Shown: positions 4,332-23,200 of the stretch, one piece after another
How positions within the stretch are numbered: the stretch's first letter is position 1
Layout: each line of letters begins with the position of its first letter
IMG/VR virus record: IMGVR_UViG_3300020204_002611
Coordinates: 1-23,455 of that record
DNA: 23,455 nt
Reading direction: 5' to 3' (one strand)
Source of the DNA: a virus
Translations under genes and position numbers: made by a program
The notes under the pieces: model-generated
Databases searched by the model: none
The model's input: the letters and a program-made list of their open reading frames with translations, nothing else
What the model was told of the DNA's origin: nothing

Positions 4332-4366
4332 TCGCCAACCAATTTTCGGATACGGGCGACAGGTGG

Positions 4367-4412
4367 TCATCGGGTTCGTGGGTAGTTTGGCAAATTAGAT
4401 AAAAAAAAATTT
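4367..4412 (+). repeat. 46-bp copied P-site/promoter-upstream module
   Basis: Identical over 46 bases to 5830-5875. It carries the TTTGGC half-site, the A9 run and the start of the -33 region. A related version with GACAGGTGGTCATC upstream also occurs at about 10760-10800. Confidence 0.9.
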
Positions 4413-4441
4413 TGTTTATATGGAAAACCATATTATATTTG
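4411..4441 (+). promoter_or_regulatory. Bacteroidota-type promoter for 4471 gene
   Basis: TTTG at 4411-4414, 19-nt spacer, TATATTTG at 4434-4441. The leader contains AAACCAATTAAA. Confidence 0.85.
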
Positions 4442-4470
4442 TATTCATAAACCAATTAAAAATACCAAGT

Positions 4471-5016
4471 ATGAACAAAGAAACCAAGAGAGTAACCCAA
4501 GAGGAAATCATCTCAATTCTCAACACCATTGACAAACCGACATTTTGTAACATTGTTACTGAAACCATTGTACGAATGAACAAGGGTAAAACCAAAGAGG
4601 GTAACAACGAAGTAAACCCCTATCACAATAAAGTAACCAAGAGAAAGAGTGGTAACTTTTTTGTAGGTATTGACTACGAAAAGAGAGTGAACACCAACGA
4701 TACCAAAGAGGGTGGAGAGGGTAACTTTGAAGTGAGTGAAAACAAAGTAGGGGAACACATTAGTAAATGTATTCTTTACAACGAGAAGTTGAACAAATAC
4801 TATTTGTTTCACGAAAGGTTTGACGAAGTAAAACCCAAGACCGAATATCTTTACGAGGGTAACACCATTGATAAAATGATATTTGACAAGTGGGTAAGTG
4901 AAAGTGGTAACTACGAAAACCAACCCCAAGACCGAAAAGTAAAGGTAATGAGTGTGAGTATCTCAAATATCAAAGAAATAAGTTTGGAAGGTACGAAGTA
5001 CATTTTAGAGGGGTAA
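4471..5016 (+). CDS. Conserved phage/plasmid protein, function unknown
   Basis: The ATG at 4471 gives 181 residues; an upstream in-frame ATG at 4420 lies inside the promoter and is excluded. The N-terminus has TFCNIVTETIVRMNKGKTKE followed by NPYHNKVTK and VGIDYEKRVN at about 66-75. This pattern (a T-E-T-x-x-RMNK strand, then NPY-K, then a YE-VN motif) belongs to a family I have seen repeatedly in phages and plasmids of Bacteroidota and other hosts without an assigned function. The protein is rich in Lys and Glu with no membrane segment. It is a single-gene unit with a strong promoter and terminator. Confidence 0.8.
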   Translation: MNKETKRVTQEEIISILNTIDKPTFCNIVTETIVRMNKGKTKEGNNEVNPYHNKVTKRKSGNFFVGIDYEKRVNTNDTKEGGEGNFEVSENKVGEHISKCILYNEKLNKYYLFHERFDEVKPKTEYLYEGNTIDKMIFDKWVSESGNYENQPQDRKVKVMSVSISNIKEISLEGTKYILEG

Positions 5017-5036
5017 AGACACCGAGAGAAAAACCG

Positions 5037-5065
5037 AAGGGGGTACGAAAGTATCCCCTTTTTTT
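5037..5065 (+). terminator. Terminator after 4471-5016
   Basis: GGGGGTAC pairs with GTATCCCC around a GAAA loop, followed by seven T. Confidence 0.9.
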
Positions 5066-5079
5066 GTGTGTGAAATTTT

Positions 5080-5249
5080 CGGAGAACCCGTGAACCATCT
5101 CAAATGTTGTTTGGCGGGTATGAATAAAAAAAGTAAGAAAAAATTTGGGAACAACCCGTTTGTACGGAGAACCCGTGAACCATCTCAAATGTTGTTTGGC
5201 GAGTATGAATAAAAAAAGTAAGAAAAAATTTGGGAACAACCCGTTTGTG
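5080..5249 (+). repeat. 85-bp tandem duplication
   Basis: Copy 1 is 5080-5164 and copy 2 is 5165-5249. They differ by one internal base (G5117 versus A5202) and the last base. Each copy carries TTGTTTGGC (5107-5115 and 5192-5200), so the duplication added an orphan L arm. Such similarity implies a recent event. Confidence 0.95.
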
Positions 5250-5268
5250 AGGGCTGCGCTGTTAGATA

Positions 5269-5323
5269 TTGATTGGCGAGTTCGGGTAGTTTGGTTAATC
5301 TCTAACCAAAGTTAGCCAATCAA
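5269..5323. repeat. IR element, 55 bp, perfect 9-bp arms
   Basis: TTGATTGGC (5269-5277) and GCCAATCAA (5315-5323). The loop contains a second perfect hairpin, TTTGGTTA with TAACCAAA. Short direct repeats TGCGCTGTT flank the element at about 5256 and 5335. The P half-site GTTGGC ends at 5378. Confidence 0.85.
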
Positions 5324-5398
5324 ATTTCAAGCATGCGCTGTTGCTCGAAGGAGAAGTTGCTGGTGTTATCAAGTTGGCAAAATAGATATAAAAAAAAG

Positions 5399-5428
5399 TT
5401 GTTTATATTGAAACCTATTGTATATTTG
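5399..5428 (+). promoter_or_regulatory. Bacteroidota-type promoter for 5459 gene
   Basis: TTG at 5399-5401, 19-nt spacer, TATATTTG at 5421-5428; leader TTAAACCAATAAAAC. P half-site AGTTGGC lies at 5372-5378. Confidence 0.85.
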
Positions 5429-5458
5429 TATCGTTAAACCAATAAAACAAAAAGAAAA

Positions 5459-5662
5459 ATGAAAAAGTTATTTCCTTACATCGCAATCATCGGGTTCATT
5501 GTTTATTCAATGTGGGTGGCGTTAACTTGGGATATTCCCGTTGACAACCAAATTGGAATGTTCTTCATTTCGTGTATGTGTATCGGAATGTTCTTCATCA
5601 TTTTATTTGAGGACATCCGAAACTACTTTAAGAAAAAGAAACCACAACCCCAAAGGTTCTAA
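5459..5662 (+). CDS. Small two-helix membrane protein, 67 residues
   Basis: The protein has two hydrophobic segments, about residues 4-24 (FPYIAIIGFIVYSMWVALTW) and 32-50 (IGMFFISCMCIGMFFIILF), joined by a short polar turn. It ends in a Lys-rich cytoplasmic tail (YFKKKKPQPQRF). A lone positive N-terminus (MKK) and basic C-terminus suggest both ends are inside. Small inner-membrane proteins of this type in phage early regions often act on host envelope functions or superinfection, but nothing here identifies the target. Own promoter and terminator. Confidence 0.75.
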   Translation: MKKLFPYIAIIGFIVYSMWVALTWDIPVDNQIGMFFISCMCIGMFFIILFEDIRNYFKKKKPQPQRF

Positions 5663-5683
5663 AAGTTTGATTAAAATTAACCA

Positions 5684-5713
5684 AACCCTCATCAGAAATG
5701 GTGGGGGTTTTTT
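5684..5713 (+). terminator. Terminator after 5459-5662
   Basis: An ACCCTCAT/ATGGTGGGGGT hairpin (with one mismatch or wobble) followed by T6. It belongs to the recurrent CCCTCA-GAAA-TGGGGG family. Confidence 0.8.
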
Positions 5714-5724
5714 ATTTTCTGTCC

Positions 5725-5759
5725 ACTTGAGTCGGGGCCCTGAAGGAAAATTGTTTGGC
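5725..5759 (+). repeat. 35-bp copied L-arm module
   Basis: Identical over 35 bases to 7035-7069. It runs from ACTTGAGTCGGGGCCCTGAA to the end of the L arm TTGTTTGGC. Confidence 0.9.
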
Positions 5760-5797
5760 GAGCAGATTAATAATCACCAATAACCGAGCCAATCTAA
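5751..5797. repeat. IR element, 47 bp
   Basis: L arm TTGTTTGGC (5751-5759) and diverged R arm GCCAATCTAA (5788-5797). P half-site TTTGGC at 5849-5854. Confidence 0.7.
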
Positions 5798-5829
5798 TTT
5801 CCCACCATGCACCGTGCGACGAAGGAGAG

Positions 5830-5875
5830 TCATCGGGTTCGTGGGTAGTTTGGCAAATTAGATAAAAAAAAATTT
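5830..5875 (+). repeat. 46-bp copied P-site/promoter-upstream module
   Basis: Second copy of 4367-4412, identical over 46 bases. Confidence 0.9.
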
Positions 5876-5904
5876 GGTATATAAGAAAAATAGTTTTATA
5901 TTTG
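5873..5904 (+). promoter_or_regulatory. Bacteroidota-type promoter for 5924 gene
   Basis: TTTG at 5873-5876, 20-nt spacer, TATATTTG at 5897-5904. The block 5872-5905 is identical to 7925-7958 (34 bp). Confidence 0.87.
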
Positions 5905-5923
5905 TATCCTAAACCAATTAAAA

Positions 5924-6217
5924 ATGACAAACTCTAAATTTATCACAACACAAAACAAAGGTTTTCAGATGACCTATGAAAATGGATGGACAATCTCTGT
6001 TCAATGGGGTACATTTAATTATTGTTCCCGTAAAACTTTTGACGTAGTTATTCCAATGTCCGAAATGAGAGAAGATTTGGTTACATCACCCGATTGTGAA
6101 ATTGCAATTTGGGATAAGAACAATGTGTGGTACGATTTTGGAACTGACCAAGTTAAAGGATATTGTAATACAGATGAAGTCGCAGAGTGGATTTGGAGAG
6201 TAAAGAACTTTGAGTAA
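5924..6217 (+). CDS. Conserved phage protein (NKGF-x-ENGW family), function unknown
   Basis: This 97-residue protein begins with a strand-rich segment containing NKGFQMTYENGWTISVQWG (11-29) and NYC, then EIAIWDKNNVWYDFG (about 60-74) and GYCNTDEVAEWI. The combination is familiar from short conserved proteins in many phages and plasmids that carry no assigned function. It is small, soluble and mildly acidic, consistent with a compact beta fold closed by a C-terminal helix. Single-gene unit with promoter 20 nt upstream of the ATG and a clean terminator. Confidence 0.8.
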   Translation: MTNSKFITTQNKGFQMTYENGWTISVQWGTFNYCSRKTFDVVIPMSEMREDLVTSPDCEIAIWDKNNVWYDFGTDQVKGYCNTDEVAEWIWRVKNFE

Positions 6218-6239
6218 TCAGTAAGATTGTTTGAAGTAG

Positions 6240-6267
6240 ACCCCGACCGAAAGGTTGGGGTTTTTTA
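6240..6267 (+). terminator. Terminator after 5924-6217
   Basis: ACCCCGACC and GGTTGGGGT with a GAAA tetraloop (6249-6252), followed by T6. Confidence 0.9.
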
Positions 6268-6308
6268 TTTACACGAAGTTCTGTGGAGAACCTGAGCATG
6301 GTAGAAAA

Positions 6309-6363
6309 TTGTTTGGCGGTATAAAGGGTTAGAATAGAATGTATTATGTAACACGCCAACCAA
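6309..6363. repeat. IR element, 55 bp
   Basis: TTGTTTGGC (6309-6317) and GCCAACCAA (6355-6363). The loop contains TGTATTATGTAACA. P half-site AGTTGGC ends at 6412, so R to P is 58 bp. Confidence 0.85.
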
Positions 6364-6441
6364 AAATCAAAATCCGTCTTCTGTCCCTCGACATCCCGTA
6401 TGATAAGTTGGCAAAAAACTTGAAAAAAAAATATAGTTTTA

Positions 6442-6473
6442 TTTGGAATATCCGTTTAATCATATTATATTCG
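6442..6473 (+). promoter_or_regulatory. Bacteroidota-type promoter, variant -7, for 6502 gene
   Basis: TTTG at 6442-6445, 20-nt spacer, TATATTCG at 6466-6473 (one departure from TAnnTTTG); leader TTAAACCAATAAAAAC. Confidence 0.75.
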
Positions 6474-6501
6474 TATTGTTAAACCAATAAAAACAACAAG
6501 T

Positions 6502-6906
6502 ATGAACAATTACAAAGACATTGAAGAAATTAGAGAGTTCATTGAAGGAATGACACACTCTGCAAAAGTGAGTACCGAAGAAATGTTGGAAACAAACGAT
6601 AGTGTTCCCAATGTGAAAATGTACCTTTTGAAAAAAGTAAACGAAGAAGGTGAAACCCAATATGGTATGGGTGGTGGTGCAATCCCTACTGATGAAATCG
6701 GTAAAATGATTTACAACAAAATCGTTCCCAAAATTATTGAAGAAGGTGGACACGAAATTTTGTGTACTTGTGAAACGACATTTTCAAACGGAATTATTAA
6801 AGTGGAGTTCCACAATTTTGTAACCGATGAAAAACACCAAGAGGTTTTTGATTTTACAAAACCTTATCAAGTTTCCGACCTTTTGTCTAATGTTTGTCTT
6901 AATTAA
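6502..6906 (+). CDS. Hypothetical acidic protein, 134 residues
   Basis: No family recognised. Residues 1-35 form an acidic helical start (YKDIEEIREFIEGMTHSAKV). The middle has a Gly-rich turn (QYGMGGGAIPTDEIGKM), and two cysteines sit close together in EILCTCETTFSNG. The ending is beta-like. No signal peptide or membrane helix. It is followed after 14 nt by the 16-codon hydrophobic frame at 6921, which shares its transcript. Confidence 0.7.
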   Translation: MNNYKDIEEIREFIEGMTHSAKVSTEEMLETNDSVPNVKMYLLKKVNEEGETQYGMGGGAIPTDEIGKMIYNKIVPKIIEEGGHEILCTCETTFSNGIIKVEFHNFVTDEKHQEVFDFTKPYQVSDLLSNVCLN

Positions 6907-6920
6907 GAAAGGAGTAAACA

Positions 6921-6971
6921 ATGGGAATTTTAATTGTGTTTATTTTAATAGTAATCGGTAGTAAACTTTGA
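6921..6971 (+). CDS. Putative 16-residue membrane peptide with Shine-Dalgarno
   Basis: AAAGGAGTAAACA precedes ATG at 6921, a near-perfect Shine-Dalgarno at suitable spacing and the only strong one I see in the window. The frame encodes MGILIVFILIVIGSKL then TGA: a continuous hydrophobic helix with a positive end. It follows the 6502 gene on the same transcript and precedes the terminator. Single-helix micro-proteins of this kind exist in phages, but no family can be assigned at this length. A chance frame is possible, although the SD, length and composition argue for translation. Confidence 0.5.
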   Translation: MGILIVFILIVIGSKL

Positions 6972-6990
6972 AAACTATCGGTTGTGGTTC

Positions 6991-7022
6991 AAACCCCTAT
7001 CAGAAATGGTGGGGGTTTTTTT
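6991..7022 (+). terminator. Terminator after 6502/6921 unit
   Basis: AACCCC with GGGGGTT around TATCAGAAATGGT, followed by T7; a member of the recurrent terminator family. Confidence 0.8.
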
Positions 7023-7034
7023 ATTTCTTTCGGG

Positions 7035-7069
7035 ACTTGAGTCGGGGCCCTGAAGGAAAATTGTTTGGC
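7035..7069 (+). repeat. 35-bp copied L-arm module
   Basis: Second copy of 5725-5759, identical over 35 bases. Confidence 0.9.
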
Positions 7070-7114
7070 TCGTATTACATATAGTGAGTATCGTATTACA
7101 CCTACGCCAACCAA
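7061..7114. repeat. IR element, 54 bp, no P site
   Basis: TTGTTTGGC (7061-7069) and GCCAACCAA (7106-7114). The loop has CGTATTACA twice. Unlike the others no P half-site follows, and the next gene is on the opposite strand. From 7115 to 7257 I see only A/T-rich sequence. Confidence 0.85.
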
Positions 7115-7257
7115 TTTGTGGGATGGGAAGGTCCCTCAATCTTTTTGATATAAAATAAATAGTTTGTTCGTTAAAAAAAAGAATTTAATGTTGATGAGAT
7201 TGGTGGTATTTGTAAAAATTAACAACCTTAAGATGTTTCTTTTTTAAAAGGTGGTGT

Positions 7258-7875
7258 TTAATTAACTGATATAATTTTAAACCATCCTCTATCATCAGTT
7301 TCACCAACTTCAATTTTACTAAACTCACAATGATTCATTTTTTTTAAATTTCTCATTGTTGACTTAACTGAACGTCGTTCTAAACCTTTAGTTAGACCTA
7401 TTACTGCGCTAAGTTGACCCTTTTTTGATTCTGGGAAATATTCAGCACGAACTGAAAATCTACTTGTGCCAACTTCCTTACCAAATCCAAACTCTTCATC
7501 ATCATCTTGTGTATATTTACCAAAATATGGCACTTCTCTTCCACCTATATCTAATACTATTTCACCAACCCTAATACTCATATTTTCATCATGAAGACTT
7601 CTATCTAAAGTAACTTCATCTACAATAGTTATGCGGGATGGAACTCTTGCATTTTGTGGAATCCAATCTAATAATTCAGACTTGATTTTTTCTTTACCTT
7701 CATCAGTTATTTGTAAGGTTATCTTTTCAGGCGCTTTTAATTTATCAAACAATATACGATTATCTCTCATCATATTATCCCATGTAGGAGTTTCATTTTC
7801 TGTTTCATTTTCCTTTATAATTCGTCTAACAATTCTTGTTAAATCAGATTCCGTTAATCTAACAACTTTTTTCAT
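7258..7875 (-). CDS. Tagged virion-type protein embedded in the array
   Basis: This 205-residue protein is the only sizeable minus-strand gene in the array. It begins MKKVVRLTESDLTRIVRRII, a third kind of N-terminal amphipathic tag of a type that heads many unrelated proteins in large Bacteroidota phages. The rest (an acidic linker at 21-35, then mixed alpha/beta sequence with DNMMRDNRILFDKLKAPEK, VGEIVLDIGG and LSAVIGLTKGLERRSVKSTM) has no domain I recognise. A TATTTAT motif lies 5 nt before the ATG, as for the minus-strand genes in the first 2.4 kb, so it is probably co-regulated with them. It is divergent from the 7983 gene. Inference: a head- or virion-associated protein inserted among early genes. 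Confidence 0.78.
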   Translation of the reverse strand: MKKVVRLTESDLTRIVRRIIKENETENETPTWDNMMRDNRILFDKLKAPEKITLQITDEGKEKIKSELLDWIPQNARVPSRITIVDEVTLDRSLHDENMSIRVGEIVLDIGGREVPYFGKYTQDDDEEFGFGKEVGTSRFSVRAEYFPESKKGQLSAVIGLTKGLERRSVKSTMRNLKKMNHCEFSKIEVGETDDRGWFKIISVN

Positions 7876-7879
7876 ATAA

Positions 7880-7887
7880 GATAAATA
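7880..7887 (-). promoter_or_regulatory. Putative late-type promoter motif TATTTAT
   Basis: Minus-strand CATATTTATCTTATATG: the TATTTAT core lies 5 nt before the ATG at 7875. ATATTTATCTTATA is also present at 2583-2594 without a gene. Confidence 0.45.
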
Positions 7888-7925
7888 TGATGAGAAATAA
7901 AAACCAAGAAAAAAATAAAAATAAA

Positions 7926-7957
7926 TTTGGTATATAAGAAAAATAGTTTTATATTTG
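7926..7957 (+). promoter_or_regulatory. Bacteroidota-type promoter for 7983 gene
   Basis: TTTG at 7926-7929, 20-nt spacer, TATATTTG at 7950-7957; leader TTAAACCAATAG. Identical over 34 bp to 5872-5905. No TTGGC half-site lies upstream. Confidence 0.87.
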
Positions 7958-7982
7958 TGTAGTTAAACCAATAGACAAAATC

Positions 7983-8198
7983 ATGAAAGTTATCTCATCA
8001 AGAATTACCGAACAACCAAAGAGTTTGTTCGACCCGATGCCCCAAGTGTGGGTTACAATGGAAAATGGACAAGAAGAATTTTTGTTCGACTACTATCCCG
8101 ATGAAATCAGTTTTACCCCCGACGAGTTTGTGGGGTTGACGATTGAGGAATGTAAACACCTCAAATTTTTGAAAGACAAGAAATACTTGACCTCCTGA
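7983..8198 (+). CDS. Conserved small protein (ISSR-TEQP family), 71 residues
   Basis: MKVISSRITEQPKSLFDPMP is followed by QVWVTMENGQEEFLF and YYPDEISFTPDEFVGLTIEE, and the protein ends LKFLKDKKYLTS. I recognise the ISSR/DPMP/YPDE/F-GLT pattern from short conserved proteins in Bacteroidota plasmids and phages, none with a known function. Predicted as a small beta-sheet followed by two helices. Single-gene unit; the terminator lies inside the next IR element rather than before it. Confidence 0.78.
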   Translation: MKVISSRITEQPKSLFDPMPQVWVTMENGQEEFLFDYYPDEISFTPDEFVGLTIEECKHLKFLKDKKYLTS

Positions 8199-8214
8199 CG
8201 GAAGATGTTAAAAT

Positions 8215-8278
8215 TTGATTGGCGAACCCTCACCGAATGGTGGGGGTTTTTATTTAGTGGTCTTATTGAGCCAACCAA
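8215..8278. repeat. IR element enclosing a terminator, 64 bp
   Basis: TTGATTGGC (8215-8223) and GCCAACCAA (8270-8278). The loop contains the complete terminator of the preceding gene, unlike the other elements where the terminator lies outside. Confidence 0.75.
8225..8253 (+). terminator. Terminator after 7983-8198
   Basis: CCCTCACC and GGTGGGGG around GAAT, then T5; it lies within the loop of the IR element. Confidence 0.87.
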
Positions 8279-8332
8279 TATTGCACTGGGAAGACTGGGT
8301 ACCCCTGAAGAAAAAAATAAAAATAAATTTGG
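8270..8332 (+). repeat. 63-bp copied R-arm/promoter-upstream module
   Basis: Identical over 63 bases to 19654-19716, 11.4 kb away. It starts with the R arm GCCAACCAATATTGCACTGG and ends at the -33 TTTGG. Confidence 0.95.
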
Positions 8333-8359
8333 TAAAATAAAAAACACATTATATCTTTG
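8328..8359 (+). promoter_or_regulatory. Bacteroidota-type promoter for 8390 gene
   Basis: TTTG at 8328-8331, 20-nt spacer, TATCTTTG at 8352-8359. Confidence 0.85.
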
Positions 8360-8389
8360 TATTGTTAAAAAAATAAAATTCAATAAATT

Positions 8390-8668
8390 ATGTTTCAATC
8401 AAAACACGAAAATTTGAGTATTCTATGGATGAATACCAAACATGCAATGTACTCACAAGTGGGTGACAACAAGATTTTTATGGAACCTCCTATGATTTCC
8501 GAAGACCAATTTGTAATCATTACACAAGGAGCAACAAGAAAAACACACGGAACACCAATCGGTTCTATTTGGAAAGAAGACGGAATTTGGAATGTTCAAA
8601 TTGACACCGAACATTTTAAAGATGTTTTAAGAGTTGAAGAAGAGATTGGGAGTGAACAATTAGTTTAA
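8390..8668 (+). CDS. Hypothetical protein, 92 residues
   Basis: No family recognised. The sequence alternates short strands and turns (NTKHAMYSQVGDNKIFMEPP, then FVIITQGATRKTHGTPIGSI and GIWNVQIDTEHF) and ends in an acidic helix. The T-P-I-G-S-I-W segment suggests a small beta fold. Soluble, without Cys or membrane segment. It sits between a strong promoter (30 nt to the ATG) and a GC-rich hairpin, as a monocistronic unit. Confidence 0.7.
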   Translation: MFQSKHENLSILWMNTKHAMYSQVGDNKIFMEPPMISEDQFVIITQGATRKTHGTPIGSIWKEDGIWNVQIDTEHFKDVLRVEEEIGSEQLV

Positions 8669-8718: not shown

Positions 8719-8767
8719 TTGATTGGCAAAAAAAGATTTGGATATAAAAAAATTTGTGTTATATTTG
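8719..8767 (+). promoter_or_regulatory. P half-site plus Bacteroidota-type promoter for 8795 gene
   Basis: TTGATTGGC at 8719-8727, TTTG at 8737-8740, 19-nt spacer, TATATTTG at 8760-8767; leader TTAAACCAATAAAAC. No L/R pair precedes this unit. Confidence 0.85.
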
Positions 8768-9261: not shown

Positions 9262-9315
9262 TTGTTTGGCGTTGTATGACACTATCGTACATTGTATTAC
9301 ACCTACGCCAAACAA
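9262..9315. repeat. IR element, 54 bp, perfect arms
   Basis: TTGTTTGGC (9262-9270) and GCCAAACAA (9307-9315), perfectly complementary including the usually mismatched fourth base. The loop contains TGTATTACACCTAC. No P site follows; the promoter begins 43 nt later. Confidence 0.85.
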
Positions 9316-9793: not shown

Positions 9794-9856
9794 TTGGTTG
9801 GCTTACTTTACAGATTAGTAGGTTTTTACTTTACACTTTGCAAGAACGCCAAACAA
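9794..9856. repeat. IR element, 63 bp
   Basis: TTGGTTGGC (9794-9802) and GCCAAACAA (9848-9856); the fourth arm base is mismatched. P half-site AGTTGGC ends at 9930. Between R and P lies CCGGGTACCCGG, a perfect 12-bp palindrome. Confidence 0.75.
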
Positions 9857-9948
9857 TTTTCCACGACGCCGGGTACCCGGCCGGGTCCTGAGGTGTTACC
9901 GAATGGTAAGTTACCTATTGGTTAGTTGGCAAGAAAAATAAAAATAAA

Positions 9949-10650: not shown

Positions 10651-10745
10651 TTGGTTGGCATTGTATGACACCTAATAAACACGTATTACGTTATATAGTT
10701 TGTTTAACCTTTTAGTCAAAACATTAAACAAATTAAGCCAAACAA
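10651..10745. repeat. IR element, 95 bp, longest loop
   Basis: TTGGTTGGC (10651-10659) and GCCAAACAA (10737-10745), loop 77 nt. Variant P site GTGTGGC ends at 10793 (R to P 57 bp). The R-P interval has GACAGGTGGTCATC, as upstream of 4391. Confidence 0.7.
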
Positions 10746-10824
10746 TTTTTTGGATTTGACGACAGGTGGTCATCTGTTTCGTGGTAGTGTGGCAAAATAG
10801 ATAAAAAAAAAATATACTTAAATG

Positions 10825-11030: not shown

Positions 11031-11130
11031 AACCCTTAATGGATTAAGTGTGAGACACGTCGCACAAATAGTCCGTAGGAAAATGTTACAGAAGTCAAAA
11101 CCTTCGGCGAAGGTGTACAGACGAATAAAG

Positions 11131-11176
11131 TTTGGCAAAAAAGATTTGGTAAACGAATAAAATTGTTATATATTTG
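11131..11176 (+). promoter_or_regulatory. P half-site plus Bacteroidota-type promoter for 11200 gene
   Basis: TTTGGC at 11131-11136, TTTG at 11145-11148, 20-nt spacer, TATATTTG at 11169-11176; leader AAACCAATAAA. No L/R pair in this intergenic region. Confidence 0.85.
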
Positions 11177-11700: not shown

Positions 11701-11745
11701 TTGTTTGGCGTCGTATTACATATTGGGGTGTAGTACGCCAACCAA
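11701..11745. repeat. IR element, 45 bp, extended arms
   Basis: ATTTTGTTTGGCG and CGCCAACCAAAAT, with loop TCGTATTACA and onward. P half-site GGTTGGC ends at 11793 (R to P 57 bp); R and P arms GCCAACC/GGTTGGC are perfectly complementary over 7 bp. Confidence 0.85.
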
Positions 11746-11812
11746 AATTTTTCCGACTCTGGGTGAAACAGTGGTTGGTGTTGATAGGTTGGCAAAAAAT
11801 ATAAAAAAAAGT

Positions 11813-12109: not shown

Positions 12110-12133
12110 GGAGATGGTGACTCGTCGAATTAG

Positions 12134-12178
12134 TTTGGCACAATAGTTTGTATATTCTAAAATTCATTTGTATATTTG
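12134..12178 (+). promoter_or_regulatory. P half-site plus Bacteroidota-type promoter for 12202 gene
   Basis: TTTGGC at 12134-12139, TTTG at 12147-12150, 20-nt spacer, TATATTTG at 12171-12178. Confidence 0.85.
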
Positions 12179-12782: not shown

Positions 12783-12828
12783 TTTGCTAAAAAAATTCGT
12801 CGCCGGGTGCGTCTCGAGTGAGATTTAG

Positions 12829-12858
12829 TTTGGCGGGTGTATGACAGATGCCAACCAA
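12829..12858. repeat. IR element, short version, 30 bp
   Basis: TTTGGC (12829-12834) and GCCAACCAA (12850-12858). The 15-nt loop has GTGTATGACA. No P half-site before the promoter. Confidence 0.75.
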
Positions 12859-13914: not shown

Positions 13915-13970
13915 TTGTTTGGCATTACCTAAAACCAATAAAATCAATACTTTGGGTTTGAGCCAACCAA
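13915..13970. repeat. IR element, 56 bp, with flanking direct repeats
   Basis: TTGTTTGGC (13915-13923) and GCCAACCAA (13962-13970). The loop carries CCAATAAAATCAATACTTT, almost identical to the loop at 16406-16460. GCTGCGCGCAA-CAG occurs in direct orientation on both sides (about 13894 and 13979). Confidence 0.85.
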
Positions 13971-14176: not shown

Positions 14177-14245
14177 TTGTTTGGCAAAAAAGTATGAAAA
14201 AAATAAAAAAAAAGTTTTTTTATACGAAAAATAGATTTATATTTG
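14177..14245 (+). promoter_or_regulatory. P half-site plus degenerate promoter for 14266 operon
   Basis: TTGTTTGGC at 14177-14185. TATATTTG at 14238-14245 is perfect, but the -33 position reads TTTT (14215-14218) without G, so the promoter may be weaker or need an activator. Confidence 0.7.
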
Positions 14246-14951: not shown

Positions 14952-15591
14952 TGAAGCAATCGCACTCTGGAAAGAGTTAGGTATTACAAGCGCAACTATG
15001 GAATTTAGTTGTGGTGGTGATAGTATGAATGATTATCACTTTAATTTTTACAATTCCGAAAACAAAGAAGTTGAGAGTGGTGAACTTGATAGTTTCTTTG
15101 ATGATGAAGTTTTCCGTAGGGTAGAGTTTTATGTGAACTCTGACGGACACTACATTGGTGAATTTGGAAGTGTTGAGATTACACTTGATGAGGACAACGA
15201 AGAACCCGATTTCTCGTATTACAAATCCGCACAGGCGGAATGGTCAGAGAGTTTTACGGAAGAAGTTGGAATAGAACTCACAGAAAAAGAAGTTGAGTTT
15301 GTCAGAACCAAAGTTCGCAATTTGGTTGGCAGTCAAGACGGAAGTTCAATTAACTATAAAGGTGATTGTATTCTTAATAATGAGGAAGAACAAATTTCCG
15401 ACACCATTTTGGAAAAGATTACTGATGTTGTTGAGAACCACGAATTTGAAAACGCAGACGGCGAACAAGAGGATTGGTTTCAATTCAACACAGAAGAAGT
15501 GGATAGTGATGTATTACCTAAAATTGTAGATAACACATTATTCGTTTCACTAACAAGACAATTTTTGGTATTGAGTGATAGTGATATGTAA
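14941..15591 (+). CDS. Acidic conserved protein, possibly DUF6878-like
   Basis: This 216-residue, strongly acidic protein contains MEFSCGGDSMNDYHFNFY (20-37), then ELDSFFDDEVFRRVEFYVNS and DGHYIGEFGSVEITLDED at about 66-83, and FSYYKSAQAEWSE. The CGGDS-D and SDGHYIG-x-G-x-V-I-L-D elements resemble the DUF6878 group, often found with DUF6915-type neighbours, as here. Asp-rich motifs could bind metal. Residues 120-216 are a second acidic half that may be a degenerate repeat of the first. It starts 11 bp inside the preceding gene, so translation is coupled. The family label is tentative. Confidence 0.6.
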   Translation: MQTNEAIALWKELGITSATMEFSCGGDSMNDYHFNFYNSENKEVESGELDSFFDDEVFRRVEFYVNSDGHYIGEFGSVEITLDEDNEEPDFSYYKSAQAEWSESFTEEVGIELTEKEVEFVRTKVRNLVGSQDGSSINYKGDCILNNEEEQISDTILEKITDVVENHEFENADGEQEDWFQFNTEEVDSDVLPKIVDNTLFVSLTRQFLVLSDSDM

Positions 15592-16405: not shown

Positions 16406-16460
16406 TTTGTTTGGCATTCTGTAAACCCAATAAAATCAATACTTTCTGTGTGCCAACCAA
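16406..16460. repeat. IR element, 55 bp, with extended stem
   Basis: TTGTTTGGC (16406-16414) and GCCAACCAA (16452-16460). The stem extends outward: GTTCG-TG-ATTTTG on the left pairs with CAAAATCGAAC on the right with a 2-nt bulge. P half-site TTGTTTGGC at 16559-16567. Confidence 0.87.
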
Positions 16461-16585
16461 AATCGAACCTGGTTGCGCTGGTTGCAGCTTCTGGTTTTTC
16501 TAGCCATTGCTTCTAGGTTTAACTAGTTTCCTGCTGCAGGGACCTGAAATCCAATAACTTGTTTGGCAAGAAAAATAAAAAAATA

Positions 16586-17388: not shown

Positions 17389-17490
17389 ATGGAAAAGTTT
17401 AATTTCTACCTTGACCAAAAGGTAACAACTTGGATGAGAACGAATTTCTCAGTGGAAGGTGAAAGGTTGAATATTGATTGGCAAGAATAA
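17389..17490 (+). CDS. Short, probably 3'-truncated gene, 33 residues
   Basis: ATG 17389, two bases after the previous stop, reads MEKFNFYLDQKVTTWMRTNF then SVEGERLNIDWQE and stop. The N-terminal FYLDQKVTTW-RTNF pattern resembles the start of a longer conserved phage family (F-FY-D-K-TTW-R--F-VEA). Here it ends after 33 residues, at a TTGATTGGC half-site (17474-17482) immediately followed by the promoter of the next gene. Inference: a regulatory cassette replaced the 3' part of the gene. The remaining peptide may still be made because the cluster is translationally coupled. Confidence 0.55.
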   Translation: MEKFNFYLDQKVTTWMRTNFSVEGERLNIDWQE

Positions 17491-17788: not shown

Positions 17789-18082
17789 AAAACACTTGAC
17801 ATTATGAAATAAGATGTTTATGTTTTATTCAGATTACATTTCATAGTTGTAATTTTGTGTTTGGTTTGACACACTAAAGGGGTTCTTTGGAATCCCTTTT
17901 TTTATTTATAAACCACTGAAAATCAATAAATTAAATCGTCCAGTCGGTCCGCTGGGCGAATTTGTTTGGCAAAATAAACACTAGTATTTTTGATAATATC
18001 ATAAAAATCTTCGGTATGTTTGTCATACATAAAGTCAAAAAAATGTTTGTGGAAAACTTTTTTTAAAAAAAATGAAATAAAA
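17789..18082. other. Intergenic region before ParB-like gene
   Basis: About 290 bases. It holds the terminator (17876-17903), a lone L/P-type arm TTGTTTGGC (17962-17970) with no R arm, and a GTATG/CATAC hairpin (18015-18029). A 35-codon minus-strand frame (17923-18030) is seen but is weakly supported. Confidence 0.55.
17876..17903 (+). terminator. Terminator after 17537-17788
   Basis: AAAGGGGTTC and GGAATCCCTTT, then T7. Confidence 0.83.
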
Positions 18083-18905: not shown

Positions 18906-18929
18906 CTTTTAGTTTAGGGGTTAGTAATT

Positions 18930-19005: not shown

Positions 19006-19014
19006 TTGTTTGGC
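19006..19014 (+). repeat. Orphan L arm
   Basis: TTGTTTGGC with no matching R arm. Downstream ATTTGTTCA (about 19070) pairs with TGAACAAAT (about 19088), a different hairpin. CCTGAAGAC precedes the arm, as at several other elements. Confidence 0.7.
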
Positions 19015-19108: not shown

Positions 19109-19139
19109 TTGGAAATAGAAAATATTCTTATTATTTTTG
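19109..19139 (+). promoter_or_regulatory. Bacteroidota-type promoter for 19163 gene
   Basis: TTG at 19109-19111, 20-nt spacer, TATTTTTG at 19132-19139. Confidence 0.7.
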
Positions 19140-19162
19140 TACTGTAATTCAAAAAATTGATT

Positions 19163-19534
19163 ATGATAAAAAAACCAAGAAAGACTACGGCTAATTCATT
19201 GAAGAAGTCTTTGCACGAAATTCGTGAATGCCTAAATGAGAGTTTACCAAATTTTGAGAAAAAAGAAATGGTAGGTATTAAGTTTTCTCGAGTTGGTACT
19301 CGTTACCACATTGAAAACGCACCAGTTCCTCCTACCGATAAAATTGGTGTACAGCTTGAACGTTCTTTTAATGACTTTATGCGTAAGCTGAAAGTAAATT
19401 ATGGTGGAATGAAACTTGAAGGTTCAATGGTGTTTGGAACCAAAGACGATTTGTTTTTGGTTGGATACAACAACTATGAGCGTAAAGGTAAAAACCTCAC
19501 CAAAAAAGGACACTCGATAGAAGGGGTTCTGTGA
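19163..19534 (+). CDS. Hypothetical basic protein, 123 residues
   Basis: ATG 19163 is chosen over the TTG at 19157. The protein starts with a basic helix (MIKKPRKTTANSLKKSLHEI), then RECLNESLPNFEKKEM, and has mixed strands afterwards with VGTRYHIENAPVPPTDKIGV and MVFGTKDDLFLVGYNNYERK. A basic, Lys-rich C-terminus (KGKNLTKKGHSIEGVL) completes it. No family recognised. The net positive charge at both ends suggests nucleic-acid or membrane-surface contact, without proof. Monocistronic; the promoter has the most diverged -7 box of the array (TATTTTTG). Confidence 0.7.
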   Translation: MIKKPRKTTANSLKKSLHEIRECLNESLPNFEKKEMVGIKFSRVGTRYHIENAPVPPTDKIGVQLERSFNDFMRKLKVNYGGMKLEGSMVFGTKDDLFLVGYNNYERKGKNLTKKGHSIEGVL

Positions 19535-19566
19535 TTTAGTATATTGATTTAATGTTCGGTTCGAAA

Positions 19567-19594
19567 AGCCCTCACAGAAATGTGGGGGTTTTTT
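19567..19594 (+). terminator. Terminator after 19163-19534
   Basis: CCCTCACA (19569-19576), GAAA, TGTGGGGG (19581-19588), then T6. Confidence 0.9.
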
Positions 19595-19640
19595 ATGCTC
19601 GGATGTGTGCAACAGAGCTGCACAGTTACATCTCGGGATT

Positions 19641-19662
19641 TTGTTTGGCGTGTGCCAACCAA
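19641..19662. repeat. IR element, minimal version, 22 bp
   Basis: TTGTTTGGC (19641-19649), a 4-nt loop GTGT, and GCCAACCAA (19654-19662). With the outer ATT/AAT it can form a tight hairpin, the shortest of the family. Confidence 0.85.
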
Positions 19663-19716
19663 TATTGCACTGGGAAGACTGGGTACCCCTGAAGAAAAAA
19701 ATAAAAATAAATTTGG
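19654..19716 (+). repeat. 63-bp copied R-arm/promoter-upstream module
   Basis: Second copy of 8270-8332, identical over 63 bases. Confidence 0.95.
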
Positions 19717-19743
19717 AATATAAAAAAATTTGTTTTATATTTG
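19712..19743 (+). promoter_or_regulatory. Bacteroidota-type promoter for gp88-like gene
   Basis: TTTG at 19712-19715, 20-nt spacer, TATATTTG at 19736-19743; leader TTAAACCAATGG. Confidence 0.85.
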
Positions 19744-19756
19744 TATTGTTAAACCA

Positions 19757-19782
19757 ATGGAGTATAGAAATGGAGTATAGAA
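19757..19782 (+). repeat. 13-bp tandem duplication at the start codon
   Basis: ATGGAGTATAGAA occurs twice in succession. The first copy opens a 7-codon frame (MEYRNGV, stop); the second is the true start of the gp88-like gene. Confidence 0.9.
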
Positions 19783-20540
19783 ATAAAACCCAAGCAAGAA
19801 AGGAGACTGGTATCAATTATTTAGGTTCAGTCAACCTCACATCAAAACACGCTAAAGCGTACAAGTATGATGAATTAACCTACAGTCTTTATCTAGCACC
19901 CGCGGACTTAAGTGGTTACGAAGTTTGTCCGATGAGGAATGAAGAATGTACTGCACTATGTTTAAACGAATCTGGTATGAATCGAATGAACATGAGAGAT
20001 GACATGATTACTCAGAGTAGAATTAAAAAAACAAAATTGTTTTTTGAACACCGTCAGTATTTTATGCAATGGATGGTTGCAGAAATTGAGGCAGCAAAAA
20101 AGAAAGCTGAAAAACAGGGTTATCACTTTAGTGTTCGTTTAAATAACACTTCAGACATTTCGCCCGAATCTTTTCATATGGTTGTAGATGGTAAAAGAAA
20201 AAACATTTTGCAATTGTTTCCTGATATTATGTTTTACGACTATAGCAAAGTAGGTAAACGAATGGAGTTAGTTAAGAAGTATAAGAACTACGACTTAACA
20301 TTTTCATTTAGTGGTACAAACTTTTCAGATTGTATTAGTATGTTGAACAATGGTATACGAGTTGCCGTTGTTTTCAAAAAAGAAATACCCAAAAAGTTTT
20401 GGGGTAGAAAAGTTATCGATGGTGACTTATATGATATGAGATATCGAGATGAGAACGACATTATTGTGGGATTAAAATATAAAGTCACACGAAAACGACC
20501 TCAAAAAGATAGCAAGTTTATAGTAGACCCCTCACAATGA
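19770..20540 (+). CDS. gp88-like phage protein (Gene product 88 family)
   Basis: ATG 19770 gives 256 residues. The signature blocks of the gp88 family are present: LYLAPADLSGYEVCPM (40-55), with Cys53, Cys60 and Cys64 in CPM-EEC-ALC, RLNNTSD at 123-129, FYDYSK at 155-160, YDLTFSFSGTN and VIDGD at 215-219, then RYRDENDIIVGLK and a basic C-terminus. The family is named from mycobacteriophage L5 gp88 and is widely spread among tailed phages; the molecular function is not established. Three conserved Cys suggest a metal or Fe-S site, as inference. The stop codon lies inside its own terminator hairpin. Upstream ATG at 19757 is a duplicated decoy. Confidence 0.88.
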   Translation: MEYRNKTQARKETGINYLGSVNLTSKHAKAYKYDELTYSLYLAPADLSGYEVCPMRNEECTALCLNESGMNRMNMRDDMITQSRIKKTKLFFEHRQYFMQWMVAEIEAAKKKAEKQGYHFSVRLNNTSDISPESFHMVVDGKRKNILQLFPDIMFYDYSKVGKRMELVKKYKNYDLTFSFSGTNFSDCISMLNNGIRVAVVFKKEIPKKFWGRKVIDGDLYDMRYRDENDIIVGLKYKVTRKRPQKDSKFIVDPSQ

Positions 20541-20550
20541 GGGGTTTTTT
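20527..20550 (+). terminator. Terminator overlapping the stop of the gp88-like gene
   Basis: CCCCTCA (20528-20534), CAA, TGAGGGG (20538-20544), then T6. The TGA stop is within the right arm. Confidence 0.88.
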
Positions 20551-20594
20551 ATTGCTAAAACATTTGCTGCGCTTTTGCGCCGGTCTTCAGGATT

Positions 20595-20649
20595 TTGTTT
20601 GGCGTAACTCAAAGTGTTGATTTTATTACATTTACAGAATGCCAACCAA
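20595..20649. repeat. IR element, 55 bp
   Basis: TTGTTTGGC (20595-20603) and GCCAACCAA (20641-20649), arms extended by ATT and AAT. P half-site TTGTTTGGC at 20726-20734. GC-rich TGCGC-type repeats occur on both sides. Confidence 0.87.
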
Positions 20650-20753
20650 AATCACATCTGGTTTGCGCGGCTATTGCTACCAGTTTTTCTGGCTATTTTG
20701 CTGGTGACCCCGGTTAATCCAAAAATTGTTTGGCAAAAAAAATATAAAAAAAA

Positions 20754-20784
20754 TTTGATTATATTAAAAATAGATGTATATTTG
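20754..20784 (+). promoter_or_regulatory. Bacteroidota-type promoter for 20805 gene
   Basis: TTTG at 20754-20757, 19-nt spacer, TATATTTG at 20777-20784. Confidence 0.85.
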
Positions 20785-20804
20785 TATCATAAAACAACAT
20801 AGTT

Positions 20805-21407
20805 ATGGGACAGTATTATAAACCAATCATTTTAGGTATCACCCCAAAAGAGGGTGAACACGAAACAGTTAAAGCGTGGATGTATTCACACGAGTACGAC
20901 AACGGACTCAAACTGATGGAGCATTCCTATCAAGGGAACAACTTCGTTTCAACTTTTGAAAAACAATTAACCCGTAGAGGTGAACATTACAAAAGTCGTG
21001 TAGTGTGGGCGGGTGATTACGCAGAAGAAGAACCAGGAGTAAAAGTCATTTCGGAAGGGAAGGAGTACGACGCAAATTTGTATTCACTTTGTAATGATGA
21101 AAACCAAATCAAACCAAAGGTTTCATCAACTGACGAATACCCCTACATTGTAAACCACAGCAAAAAAATGTTCGTGGACAAAAACAAAGTTCCCGAAATT
21201 CAAGGATGGGATGGTGCAAAAATTCACCCTTTACCACTATTAACTAGTGAGGGTAACGGACAAGGTGGTGGAGATTTTAGAGGTGATGATGAAAATGAGA
21301 TTATTGGTTCGTGGTCGAGAGATGTCATCTCAATAGAAAAAGATAGTCCACTTGTTACCAACGGCACAATGGATTACGCCGAATTGATTTTTGATTTGAA
21401 AGAATAA
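20805..21407 (+). CDS. Conserved protein (MGQYYKPI family), 200 residues
   Basis: The protein begins MGQYYKPIILG and contains GLKLMEHSYQGNNFV (34-48), RVVWAGDYAEEE at 65-76, YIVNHSKKMFVDK at about 114-126 and IHPLPLLTSEGNGQGGGDFR (141-160), then W-RD. I recognise this pattern as a widespread conserved family in bacteria and phages without a name or known reaction. Conserved Trp/Gly/Asp blocks (WAGDYA, EGNGQGGGDFRG) imply a conserved pocket. The gene is monocistronic; its terminator T-run also forms the arm of the next half-site. Confidence 0.85.
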   Translation: MGQYYKPIILGITPKEGEHETVKAWMYSHEYDNGLKLMEHSYQGNNFVSTFEKQLTRRGEHYKSRVVWAGDYAEEEPGVKVISEGKEYDANLYSLCNDENQIKPKVSSTDEYPYIVNHSKKMFVDKNKVPEIQGWDGAKIHPLPLLTSEGNGQGGGDFRGDDENEIIGSWSRDVISIEKDSPLVTNGTMDYAELIFDLKE

Positions 21408-21411
21408 AAAG

Positions 21412-21435
21412 GTCCCCCGTCACAGGGGGATTTTT
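21412..21435 (+). terminator. Terminator overlapping the next half-site
   Basis: TCCCCC and GGGGGA around GTCACA (21413-21430), then T5. The T-run is shared with the arm TTGTTTGGC that follows. Confidence 0.87.
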
Positions 21436-21482
21436 GTTTGGCAAAAAACATTTGGAATATAAAAGAATTAATATTATATTTG
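21434..21482 (+). promoter_or_regulatory. P half-site plus Bacteroidota-type promoter for 21501 operon
   Basis: TTGTTTGGC at 21434-21442, TTTG at 21451-21454, 20-nt spacer, TATATTTG at 21475-21482; leader AAACCAATCAAG. Confidence 0.87.
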
Positions 21483-21500
21483 TATCATAAACCAATCAAG

Positions 21501-21890
21501 ATGAGTAAGAGTATTAAAGTTAGGTTCAATCTCGGTAGAGGTAAGAACTACCTGAAATGGAAAGTACAACACCCAGACGGTAGTGTATTGTATTACAGTC
21601 CAACCGATAATCAATTAGTGATGACGGGTTGCACATTTAAGAACCACAGGAAAACCGCACAAAAGATTTTTGATGGTGGTAATAAAGTAGTGTGCGCGTG
21701 GATACTTTGTAAGGACATTAAGATTTACACAGGTCAACCATACAAGGATGAAAGTCGTAGGGTTCGATACAATCCACGAGTTCAACCTAACTGGTTATTT
21801 GATGGTCACATCATGGATAATGATGGGGTACCACAATTACATACCATCGATTACGGAGTGTACATCACAACAGGTGAAGGTGAAATTTAG
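21501..21890 (+). CDS. Conserved protein (FNLGRGKNYLKWKV family), 129 residues
   Basis: ATG 21501 is chosen; an upstream TTG at 21438 precedes the promoter. The protein reads IKVRFNLGRGKNYLKWKVQH (5-24), then SVLYYSPTDNQLVMTGCTFK and NHRKTAQKIFDGGNKVVCAW, RRVRYNPRVQPNW at about 89-101 and IDYGVYIT near the end. The blocks FNLGRG-NY-KWKV, C--KN---A-KIF and VCAW--C--I are those of a conserved phage/plasmid family of unknown role, rich in Lys and Arg. It shares a transcript with the SprT-like gene (22-nt gap); the gap begins with TTTGGC (21891-21896) but no promoter. Confidence 0.83.
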   Translation: MSKSIKVRFNLGRGKNYLKWKVQHPDGSVLYYSPTDNQLVMTGCTFKNHRKTAQKIFDGGNKVVCAWILCKDIKIYTGQPYKDESRRVRYNPRVQPNWLFDGHIMDNDGVPQLHTIDYGVYITTGEGEI

Positions 21891-21912
21891 TTTGGCCACA
21901 AAATAAAACAAC

Positions 21913-22389
21913 ATGGACTTAATTAAAGCACAACAACTCGCAGATAAGTTAATTCGTAAACACAAGTTAGATGTTAATGGATGGACATTTGTGTATGACA
22001 ACGCAAAACTTAGGTTTGGGTGTTGTAAATACAGACCTAAACAAATTACACTATCCAAAGTATTGACATTACTTAATGATGAAAGTCATGTAAAGAATAC
22101 TATTCTACATGAAATTGCACACGCACTTTGTCCTGGTCAAAAACATAACCATGTATGGAGAGCGAAGGCAATTGAAATAGGTTGTGACGGACATCGTTGT
22201 TATAGTAGTAAAGTAGTTGAAACATCCGAAACAAAATATGTTGCAACATGTGTTGGTTGTGGTAAAGTATCCAAAGCGCATCGTTTAAGAAGAAGGTCTT
22301 ATTCGTGTAGTAATTGTTCAGGTGGTAGTTACAACCCTAAATACAAATTGGAGTTCAGGTTGAACCCCAGATTCACGGGGGGGATTTAG
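21913..22389 (+). CDS. SprT-like zinc metalloprotease-type protein
   Basis: This 158-residue protein carries HEIAH at 66-70, the zinc-binding signature of SprT/Spartan-like proteins, in the helix KNTILHEIAHALCP. The third ligand is probably His80 in HNHVW. Residues 113-135 form a zinc ribbon (C113-x2-C116 and C132-x2-C135), as in many SprT-like proteins. The N-terminal part (residues 1-55) is the usual helix plus strand segment, including WTFVYDNAKLRFG. In eukaryotes Spartan cleaves DNA-protein crosslinks; the role of phage SprT-like proteins is not known. No promoter of its own; translated with the preceding gene. The C-terminus (NPRFTGGI) merges into the copied regulatory module at its stop. 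Confidence 0.88.
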   Translation: MDLIKAQQLADKLIRKHKLDVNGWTFVYDNAKLRFGCCKYRPKQITLSKVLTLLNDESHVKNTILHEIAHALCPGQKHNHVWRAKAIEIGCDGHRCYSSKVVETSETKYVATCVGCGKVSKAHRLRRRSYSCSNCSGGSYNPKYKLEFRLNPRFTGGI

Positions 22390-22450
22390 GTTGGCAACAA
22401 AGTTCAAAATAAATTTGGTATAAAAGAAAAATTGTTATATCTTTGTATTA
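22383..22450 (+). repeat. 68-bp copied P-site/promoter module, copy 1
   Basis: Matches 23133-23200 with three differences over 68 bases. It includes GGTTGGC (22389-22395), the -33 and the -7 boxes. Its first seven bases (GATTTAG) hold the last codon bases and stop of the SprT-like gene. Confidence 0.9.
22414..22445 (+). promoter_or_regulatory. Bacteroidota-type promoter for 22469 gene
   Basis: TTTG at 22414-22417, 20-nt spacer, TATCTTTG at 22438-22445. Confidence 0.85.
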
Positions 22451-22468
22451 CAATTAAATCAAAAAAGT

Positions 22469-23059
22469 ATGGGATACACAACCGATTTCGAAGGTGGATT
22501 TGAATTCAGTCGTCCACTCACTAGTGATGAAAAAAATTACATCACCAAGTTCAACAACACTCGTAGAATGAAACGAAATGTTGAGAAACTCTATGAGTTA
22601 TTTAAGGGTGAACACGGAAACCCTTTTCTACCAAAAGAAGAAACCTACGGAAACGATGGTGAATACTTTGTTGGTGGTAATGGGTTCGCGGGTCAAGACA
22701 AGGATGATAGTATTGTTGATTACAACACACCTCCAGGTCAACTTGATTTTCTAACAACTAACTACAACGAAAGGTGGACACAAAATGATTTGAGAACGCG
22801 AGAGGGTAAATGTCAACCTGGTTTATGGTGTCAATGGACTACGGATGAAAATGGAATTCATCTAATGTGGGATGGTGGTGAGAAGTTTTACAACTACGTT
22901 GAGTGGTTGAAGTATCTTATCAATCATTTCTTTGAGAAGTGGGGTGTGAAATTAAATGGTGAGGTTTATTGGAAAGGCGAGGATGGTGAGGACATGGGTA
23001 AGATTGTTGTAAAGGACAACTGGGTCACAGTAAAATACGCGAGGATTACTTATGATTGA
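22469..23059 (+). CDS. Conserved protein (MGYTTDF family), 196 residues
   Basis: MGYTTDFEGGFEFSRPLTSD opens the protein; the following FNNTRRMKRNVEKLYELFKG and GNDGEYFVGGNGFAGQD blocks, then DYNTPPGQ and the central QPGLWCQWTTDENGIHLMWD, GGEKFYNYVEWLKYLI and EVYWKGEDGEDMGKI are all typical of a widespread unnamed family. The WDGGEKFY-YVEWL core at about 134-147 is the most distinctive. Members occur in bacteria, phages and plasmids with no reported activity. Monocistronic, followed by a GAAA-loop terminator. Confidence 0.87.
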   Translation: MGYTTDFEGGFEFSRPLTSDEKNYITKFNNTRRMKRNVEKLYELFKGEHGNPFLPKEETYGNDGEYFVGGNGFAGQDKDDSIVDYNTPPGQLDFLTTNYNERWTQNDLRTREGKCQPGLWCQWTTDENGIHLMWDGGEKFYNYVEWLKYLINHFFEKWGVKLNGEVYWKGEDGEDMGKIVVKDNWVTVKYARITYD

Positions 23060-23074
23060 TTGGTTTAAGGGGAG

Positions 23075-23102
23075 AACCCCACAGAAATGTGGGGTTTTTT
23101 AT
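23075..23102 (+). terminator. Terminator after 22469-23059
   Basis: ACCCCACA, GAAA, TGTGGGGT, then T-run. The segment before it, ATTGGTTTAA (23058-23067), is complementary to the leader motif TTAAACCAAT. Confidence 0.9.
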
Positions 23103-23132
23103 TAAAAACCTCGTACACATAGGATGGACATT

Positions 23133-23200
23133 GATTTAGGTTGGCAACAAAGTTGAAAATAAATTTGGTATAAAAGAAAAATCATTATATCTTTGTATTA
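23133..23200 (+). repeat. 68-bp copied P-site/promoter module, copy 2
   Basis: Second copy of 22383-22450 with three differences. It includes GGTTGGC (23139-23145). Confidence 0.9.
23164..23195 (+). promoter_or_regulatory. Bacteroidota-type promoter for 23200 gene
   Basis: TTTG at 23164-23167, 20-nt spacer, TATCTTTG at 23188-23195. The ATG begins only 5 nt after the -7 box. Confidence 0.85.

Follow-up and report, generated by a model that had tools for sequence, protein, structure and literature searches.

The 23,455-bp linear fragment IMGVR_UViG_3300020204_002611, a complete IMG/VR record here called the window, carries an array of short repeated sites, termed L, R and P, which we interpret as half-sites (about RAWWTTGNTTGGC) of a phage-specific trans-acting protein that would control early host-type promoters. 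We put the probability of this reading at roughly 0.7. L and R form an inverted pair, TTGNTTGGC followed by GCCAANCAA, separated by a loop; P is a single forward site ahead of the promoter. The sites lie upstream of the promoter and in helical register with it, which points to transcription control. In addition, each genome uses one half-site in paired and unpaired positions, and all copies change together between relatives, as would be expected for a phage-specific reader acting in trans.

Half-sites in the window and in related phages

Small genes, mainly one per promoter and each unit with a terminator, fill the right four fifths of the window. The promoters are of the Bacteroidota type (TTTG, about 19 bp, TAnnTTTG); in Flavobacterium, TAnnTTTG is located at -12 to -5 (PMC9723704). 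We regard the window as the early region of a phage with a very large genome because relatives of its ParB-like protein at 95% identity are found on contigs that include some of 202-288 kb, and a 43% relative on one of 311 kb; the label "early" and the host assignment derive solely from promoter type and gene layout.

Exact half-sites number 40 in the window (26 forward TTGNTTGGC and 14 GCCAANCAA), against none for the control pattern read backwards. L and R share the consensus gaAwwTTGnTTGGC; that of P is wTwGnTTGGCAAaAAA. The sites are intergenic in 36 of the 40 cases (Fisher test, odds ratio 20, p=1.5e-14); the exceptions are at 15322, 15970, 16803 and 17474, the last of which overlaps a gene end. 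The 14 L-R units of the initial annotation were all recovered, two of them with one arm a single base off (GCCAATCTA at 5788, TAGTTTGGC at 12826), as were the loop range of 4-77 nt and the seven units spanning 54-56 bp, with one start corrected from 16406 to 16407. R-P intervals of 57-58 bp were also as described, although the P at 10789 has a variant sequence (TGTGGC). A T:C mismatch at the fourth base of the arms occurs in just 8 of the 14 units, the others having A:T, T:A, G:A, A:C or T:T, and the base is therefore degenerate rather than conserved as a mismatch.

The sites are largely confined to one part of the genome, a stretch of 20-30 kb in the relatives of 233 and 311 kb. In the 233-kb relative G003, 45 of 51 sites fall inside a single stretch at 150-190 kb, and in the 311-kb relative G004, 46 of 58 fall inside one at 40-60 kb, in each case where host-type promoters cluster. 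A 22-bp palindrome formed by the L-R unit with the shortest loop had one match in 295 genomes of Bacteroidia, the class of the likely hosts, as did the reversed control, and its identity as a host operator was rejected. Searches of bacterial genomes for the P-promoter pattern gave isolated matches only. Sites equally frequent inside genes or in the host, which the initial annotation had named as evidence against the element, were thus not found.

Helical phasing of loops and promoter distances

The loop lengths of the facing L-R pairs group at 4, 15, 25, 36, 46 and 76. In the window's group of phages, the best period between 6 and 20 bp was 10.4-10.5 bp (phasing R=0.69, n=80). Counting by 34 loop clusters gave R=0.63 (p~2e-6, and p~2e-5 without the peak at 36). 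The distance from P to the -10 box is 36-38, 46-49 or 57-60 bp (R=0.83, n=80; p~4e-8 without the main peak), placing P at about -49, -59 and -70; at 37, 47 or 58 bp upstream of the box, P lies in helical phase. Loops were also phased in other TTGNTTGGC phages (R=0.48, n=31, p=9e-4). In TTACTGGG phages, phasing was detected both for the L-R pairs (R=0.41, p=0.006) and for the last site ahead of the promoter (R=0.63, n=31).

All sites in the window are upstream of the promoter: none touches -33 to -7, and none falls between promoter and gene. Because the core promoter is left free, activation is slightly favoured over repression.

Half-site replacement among relatives

Relatives were gathered by a profile scan with DUF932, a conserved protein of the array, which gave 78 loci. 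De novo 8-mer counts identified other half-sites, in both orientations, in relatives with the same promoter array. Twelve related genomes or large contigs have nine half-sites in total, one per genome and 16-59 sites each: TTGNTTGGC (51, 58, 36 and 32 in four genomes), TTACTGGG (28), TTAGTGGGGC (49), TGANYGGC (38), TTCTGTGGC (21), TTGTCTAG (31), TTACC[GA]GG (59), TTAGTCTGG (22) and TTGNTTCGC (16). In each of the 12, the genome's own motif is concentrated in one region, mostly the same early region, and foreign motifs are close to background. Neighbouring sites are arranged forward then reverse 104 times, versus 3 times reverse then forward. The loop families GTATTACA and AACTCATTGATTATCAAT are common to phages with different half-sites and occur in either orientation.

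In the DUF932 tree, TTAGTGGGGC and TTAGTCTGG phages are nested with the window's TTGNTTGGC group (clade support 100/98), and at least eight half-site changes are required overall. This repeated switching recalls immunity repressors. Tentatively, we suggest a "private" operator code in giant phages that have no recognisable lysogeny module: one protein and its 16-59 half-sites would have been jointly rewritten on at least eight occasions, with the loops retained, perhaps driven by competition among co-infecting relatives or by hijackers. How a regulator changes its DNA specificity when dozens of sites must follow is an open question; here a single virus family offers no fewer than nine solved cases, among genomes both near-identical and distant, and with these the sequence of events, the protein and the selective force become testable. 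The sites would also provide a regulatory map for early genes, mostly of unassigned function, in large phages with Bacteroidota-type promoters. The phased loops and P-promoter distances, the loops inverted among relatives and the other half-sites in relatives all go beyond the initial annotation.

One 15-kb relative (L107) has promoters without P; instead, a repeat TTTAACA..TTTTAACAA is found directly ahead of the -33 element.

Sequence exchange at the half-sites

Orthologous units are mosaics, in which left flank, loop, R-P spacer and P-promoter part have been exchanged separately. The loop of unit 9262, for example, is 97% identical to its counterpart in G003, while both neighbouring parts are unrelated. 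Compared to G008, the 9794 loop is inverted beside an unturned flank (z=13 inverted, -0.3 forward), and the 20595 loop matches G003 at 87% on the minus strand within a 5.8-kb plus-strand block. Apart from one single-nucleotide polymorphism, the only difference between the window and G009 across 16.1 kb is a 31-bp block that extends from R (8270-8278) as far as the promoter A-tract and is identical to the spacer found in the window itself behind the R at 19654. Where gene units differ, the borders of the difference lie at R (4332 and 6354), at L (8226) and at P (11789 and 16556); promoters (A-tracts) and terminators form such borders as well. The unit of the gene at 8390-8668, flanked by two aaatttgaTTGGC direct repeats, is missing in G003. 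Breakpoints unrelated to the sites, which the initial annotation would have counted against its proposal, did not refute it.

In all units, L and R are flanked by G+C-rich modular spacers (for example GACGACAGGTGGTCATC and CCTGAAGA) in a genome of 35% G+C, and these spacers are exchanged between units. One loop family (13915-13970, 16407-16460, 20595-20649 and relatives) retains an IHF-like AATAAAATCAAYnnTTTR in either orientation, with WATCAANNNNTTR in most copies. A phage-encoded IHF or HU acting on the loops was considered and rejected, as none was found.

Hairpins, recombination sites and mobile elements

The initial annotation had suggested that R could pair with either L or P in two mutually exclusive hairpins. 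A hairpin in DNA or RNA would agree with the inverted arms, which are complementary at 8 of 9 bases, and with the change of both arms together between phage types. In order to look for covariation, 68 units from seven phage contigs were analyzed by shuffling arms among units of the same genome. Complementarity within units did not exceed that of shuffled arms at any outer, core or inner position, with a tendency toward less complementarity at the fourth base (p=0.955) and at position -1 (p=0.9995). The covariation proposed as a check is thus absent, and the alternating hairpins are not borne out. Moreover, the unpaired P and lone sites change along with the arms, and helical phasing would be meaningless for a hairpin loop. 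L, R and P behave as double-stranded half-sites and not as a selected hairpin, a reading rejected on the shuffle test and in our judgement very improbable. At position -1, just outside TTG, the deficit in L/R complementarity looks as if perfect palindromes were avoided.

Dedicated recombination sites, either attC-like or served by an invertase, that shuffle early gene cassettes are somewhat better placed, yet still improbable. The loop inversions run exactly from L to R, the spacer replacement between near-identical phages begins at R, and gene units are gained or lost at L, R or P. The proposal that the sites delimit cassettes holds to the extent that insertions, losses, swaps and inversions break there, but not exclusively so, as promoters and terminators are also breakpoints. 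A tyrosine integrase (PF00589) was absent in 10 relatives, including contigs of 288 and 311 kb, with positive controls (serine recombinases and transposases were not searched for). None of nine near-identical contigs shows a loop inversion, so that active inversion was rejected; loops of 36 bp are very short for a synaptic invertase, the arms do not covary, and P is phased with the promoter. We would rather read the exchange as short-homology exchange among repeats, for which breaks at promoter A-tracts and terminators are also expected, than as the work of a dedicated recombinase. Mobile inverted-repeat elements, another suggestion of the initial annotation, are not needed as an explanation. 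That the L-R units are copies of a miniature transposable element, bounded by terminal repeats and dispersed over the array, is scarcely credible: their loops do recur at several places and in both orientations, but partnerless P half-sites stand at fixed helical positions ahead of promoters, the arms and not the loops differ between phages, and the sites are confined to one region.

Regulatory model and candidate proteins

Paired binding sites for a phage protein, also raised in the initial annotation, are well supported by the phasing, the lack of covariation, the absence from genomes of the likely host class and the single genome-specific half-site per phage. We infer the protein itself, its encoding by the phage and its contact with polymerase. 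In the model, a facing L-R pair would be occupied by two molecules, which in this phage group would share one face of the helix and be separated by a bendable loop. A single P site would hold a further molecule in helical phase with RNA polymerase, at about -59 (also -49 and -70), a geometry known from upstream regulators in contact with polymerase. Each lineage would have a protein and sites of one specificity, replaced across the array when it changes, and the repeated half-sites could double as short homology for the exchange of loops, spacers and gene units.

Several observations weigh against this model. R-P and R-promoter distances are unphased in the window's group (R~0.2, with an R-P mode of 52), so that the array has two modules without a fixed link, P coupled to the promoter and R coupled to L. 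Phasing was not seen for TTGTCTAGTT and TTACCGGG pairs, and helical phasing as a feature of every half-site type was therefore rejected. Off-phase units exist (loops 28, 63 and 72), and the p-values for phasing are approximate since orthologous units share descent. No helix-turn-helix regulator was recognized among about 100 conserved G003 proteins (best 25 families per scan), and the plausible candidate, a 97-aa protein that tracks the motif, has no supported fold.

The annotation-based search for a binder in these G003 proteins, with the same 25 best families per scan, gave nothing. When presence was tracked by motif type, two small genes were confined to TTGNTTGGC genomes of the set. One of them encodes the 97-aa protein (G003 193353-193646, minus strand, corresponding to L117:13353-13646) and is placed among probable virion genes. 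An HsdS-like domain (type I restriction recognition) in this protein was unsupported by Pfam, PHROGs, PDB sequences, PF01420 and AlphaFold/Foldseek. Neither the DUF932 nor the ParB-like proteins follow the motif, and both were rejected as binders.

The sites may instead be operators of a phage-encoded early-gene repressor that serves in addition as immunity versus co-infecting relatives, with escape from cross-repression driving half-site change. Specificity is uniform per genome and was switched at least eight times among relatives, and stoperators diversify likewise (PMC6550527). The core promoters come close to the host consensus and are expected to be active at once, which would make shutting them off the more natural task for a regulator produced later. 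However, the upstream position of every site in the window, clear of -33 to -7 and of the stretch between promoter and gene, speaks against repression, as does the failure to detect a tyrosine integrase (10 relatives) or a recognisable repressor (about 100 G003 proteins, best 25 families per scan), and we regard this possibility as rather unlikely.

Comparison with known systems

The Extended Start-Associated Sequences (ESAS) of cluster K mycobacteriophages (PMC3203893) are likewise imperfect inverted-repeat pairs with a variable spacer, found ahead of many genes beside a second asymmetric element, and have a subgroup-specific consensus (by subcluster in ESAS, by phage group here). Their authors thought hairpins unlikely and favoured DNA-binding proteins of differing specificity (PMC3203893). 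ESAS differ in having 17-bp repeats with mostly 4-13 bp spacers, located at translation starts beside GGGATAGGAGCCC, while here the spacers reach 77 bp in helical steps and the half-sites diverge much more between relatives. The present sites are upstream of promoters and not at translation starts beside the Start-Associated Sequence (which was not searched for).

The stoperators of cluster A mycobacteriophages also comprise tens of dispersed sites, in one orientation like P, with a genome-specific motif and diversifying specificity (PMC6550527, PMC9283540). They differ in being single, asymmetric sites of 13 bp at which elongation is stopped, and in belonging to temperate phages (PMC6550527, PMC9283540), in contrast to inverted pairs upstream of promoters in large phages, with no tyrosine integrase found in 10 relatives. 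A single asymmetric site in one orientation describes P but not L-R. The PeSLs (promoter plus stem-loop) of T4-type phages, as far as the citing account describes them (cited in PMC4503421), are units of early promoter and terminator in heavily shuffled regions that serve as exchange joints. The window likewise has host-type promoters and terminators at unit borders, with breaks there; relative to that account, the L-R-P sites would be an added layer, and the joints include them.

By anatomy and subgroup-specific arms, ESAS would be the nearest relatives; by evolutionary behaviour, the stoperators; by shuffling, the PeSLs. Phased inverted pairs upstream of promoters together with unrelated half-sites between relatives are combined in none of the three in the accounts cited here.

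The R boxes of integron attC sites read RYYYAAC ... GTTRRRY, in that order. The window's units resemble attC in their inverted arms, 54-58 bp size and position between gene cassettes, but differ in consensus and arm order, and GTTTGGC breaks GTTRRRY. The likeness to attC noted in the initial annotation was not upheld: membership was rejected for want of IntI (PF00589, 10 relatives) and of compensatory changes in a folded strand.

Features of the window

Table 1. Half-sites, paired units and associated features in the window (strand "." for inverted pairs; distances in bp).
Feature	Position	Strand	Remarks
Orphan R, no L	4334..4342	-	array start; G003 homology resumes here
P half-site	4383..4391	+	47 ahead of -10
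Lone L	5107..5115	+	copy 1 of 85-bp tandem duplication
Lone L	5192..5200	+	copy 2 of 85-bp tandem duplication
L-R unit	5269..5323	.	loop 37
P half-site	5370..5378	+	
L-R unit	5751..5796	.	loop 28; R one base off
P half-site	5846..5854	+	
L-R unit	6309..6363	.	loop 37; G003 lacks L, loop and left flank, junction at R
P half-site	6404..6412	+	
L-R unit	7061..7114	.	loop 36; GTATTACA family
L-R unit	8215..8278	.	loop 46, terminator inside; L is left end of direct repeat around gene cassette missing in G003
Spacer, 31 bp, R to promoter	8280..8310	+	the one non-point difference from G009 in 16.1 kb; same sequence as spacer behind R at 19654
P half-site	8719..8727	+	37 ahead of -10; right end of the cassette's direct repeat
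L-R unit	9262..9315	.	loop 36; loop 97% identical in G003, flanks unrelated
L-R unit	9794..9856	.	loop 45; inverted in G008 beside unturned left flank
P half-site	9922..9930	+	
L-R unit	10651..10745	.	loop 77
Variant P (AGTGTGGC)	10785..10793	+	
P half-site	11128..11136	+	37 ahead of -10
L-R unit	11701..11745	.	loop 27
P half-site	11785..11793	+	end point of extra gene unit in G003
P half-site	12131..12139	+	
L-R unit	12826..12858	.	loop 15; L one base off
L-R unit	13915..13970	.	loop 38; IHF-like AATAAAATCAAT family
P half-site	14177..14185	+	
L-R unit	16407..16460	.	loop 36; AATAAAATCAAT family
P half-site	16559..16567	+	
P half-site	17474..17482	+	overlaps end of upstream open reading frame
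Lone forward site	17962..17970	+	precedes promoter
Lone forward site	19006..19014	+	122 ahead of -10
L-R unit	19641..19662	.	loop 4, giving 22-bp palindrome
L-R unit	20595..20649	.	loop 37; inverted relative to G003 within collinear 5.8-kb block
P half-site	20726..20734	+	
P half-site	21434..21442	+	37 ahead of -10
P half-site	22387..22395	+	
P half-site	23137..23145	+	

The 85-bp tandem duplication that bears the two lone L sites is at 5080-5245. A reverse-strand gene (7258-7875, minus strand) is located between an R site and its promoter, where the corresponding gap in G003 is merely about 20 bp. The 200-aa protein encoded at 20805-21407, with no assigned function, has about 38% identity to proteins of some 185 large Mycobacterium phages.

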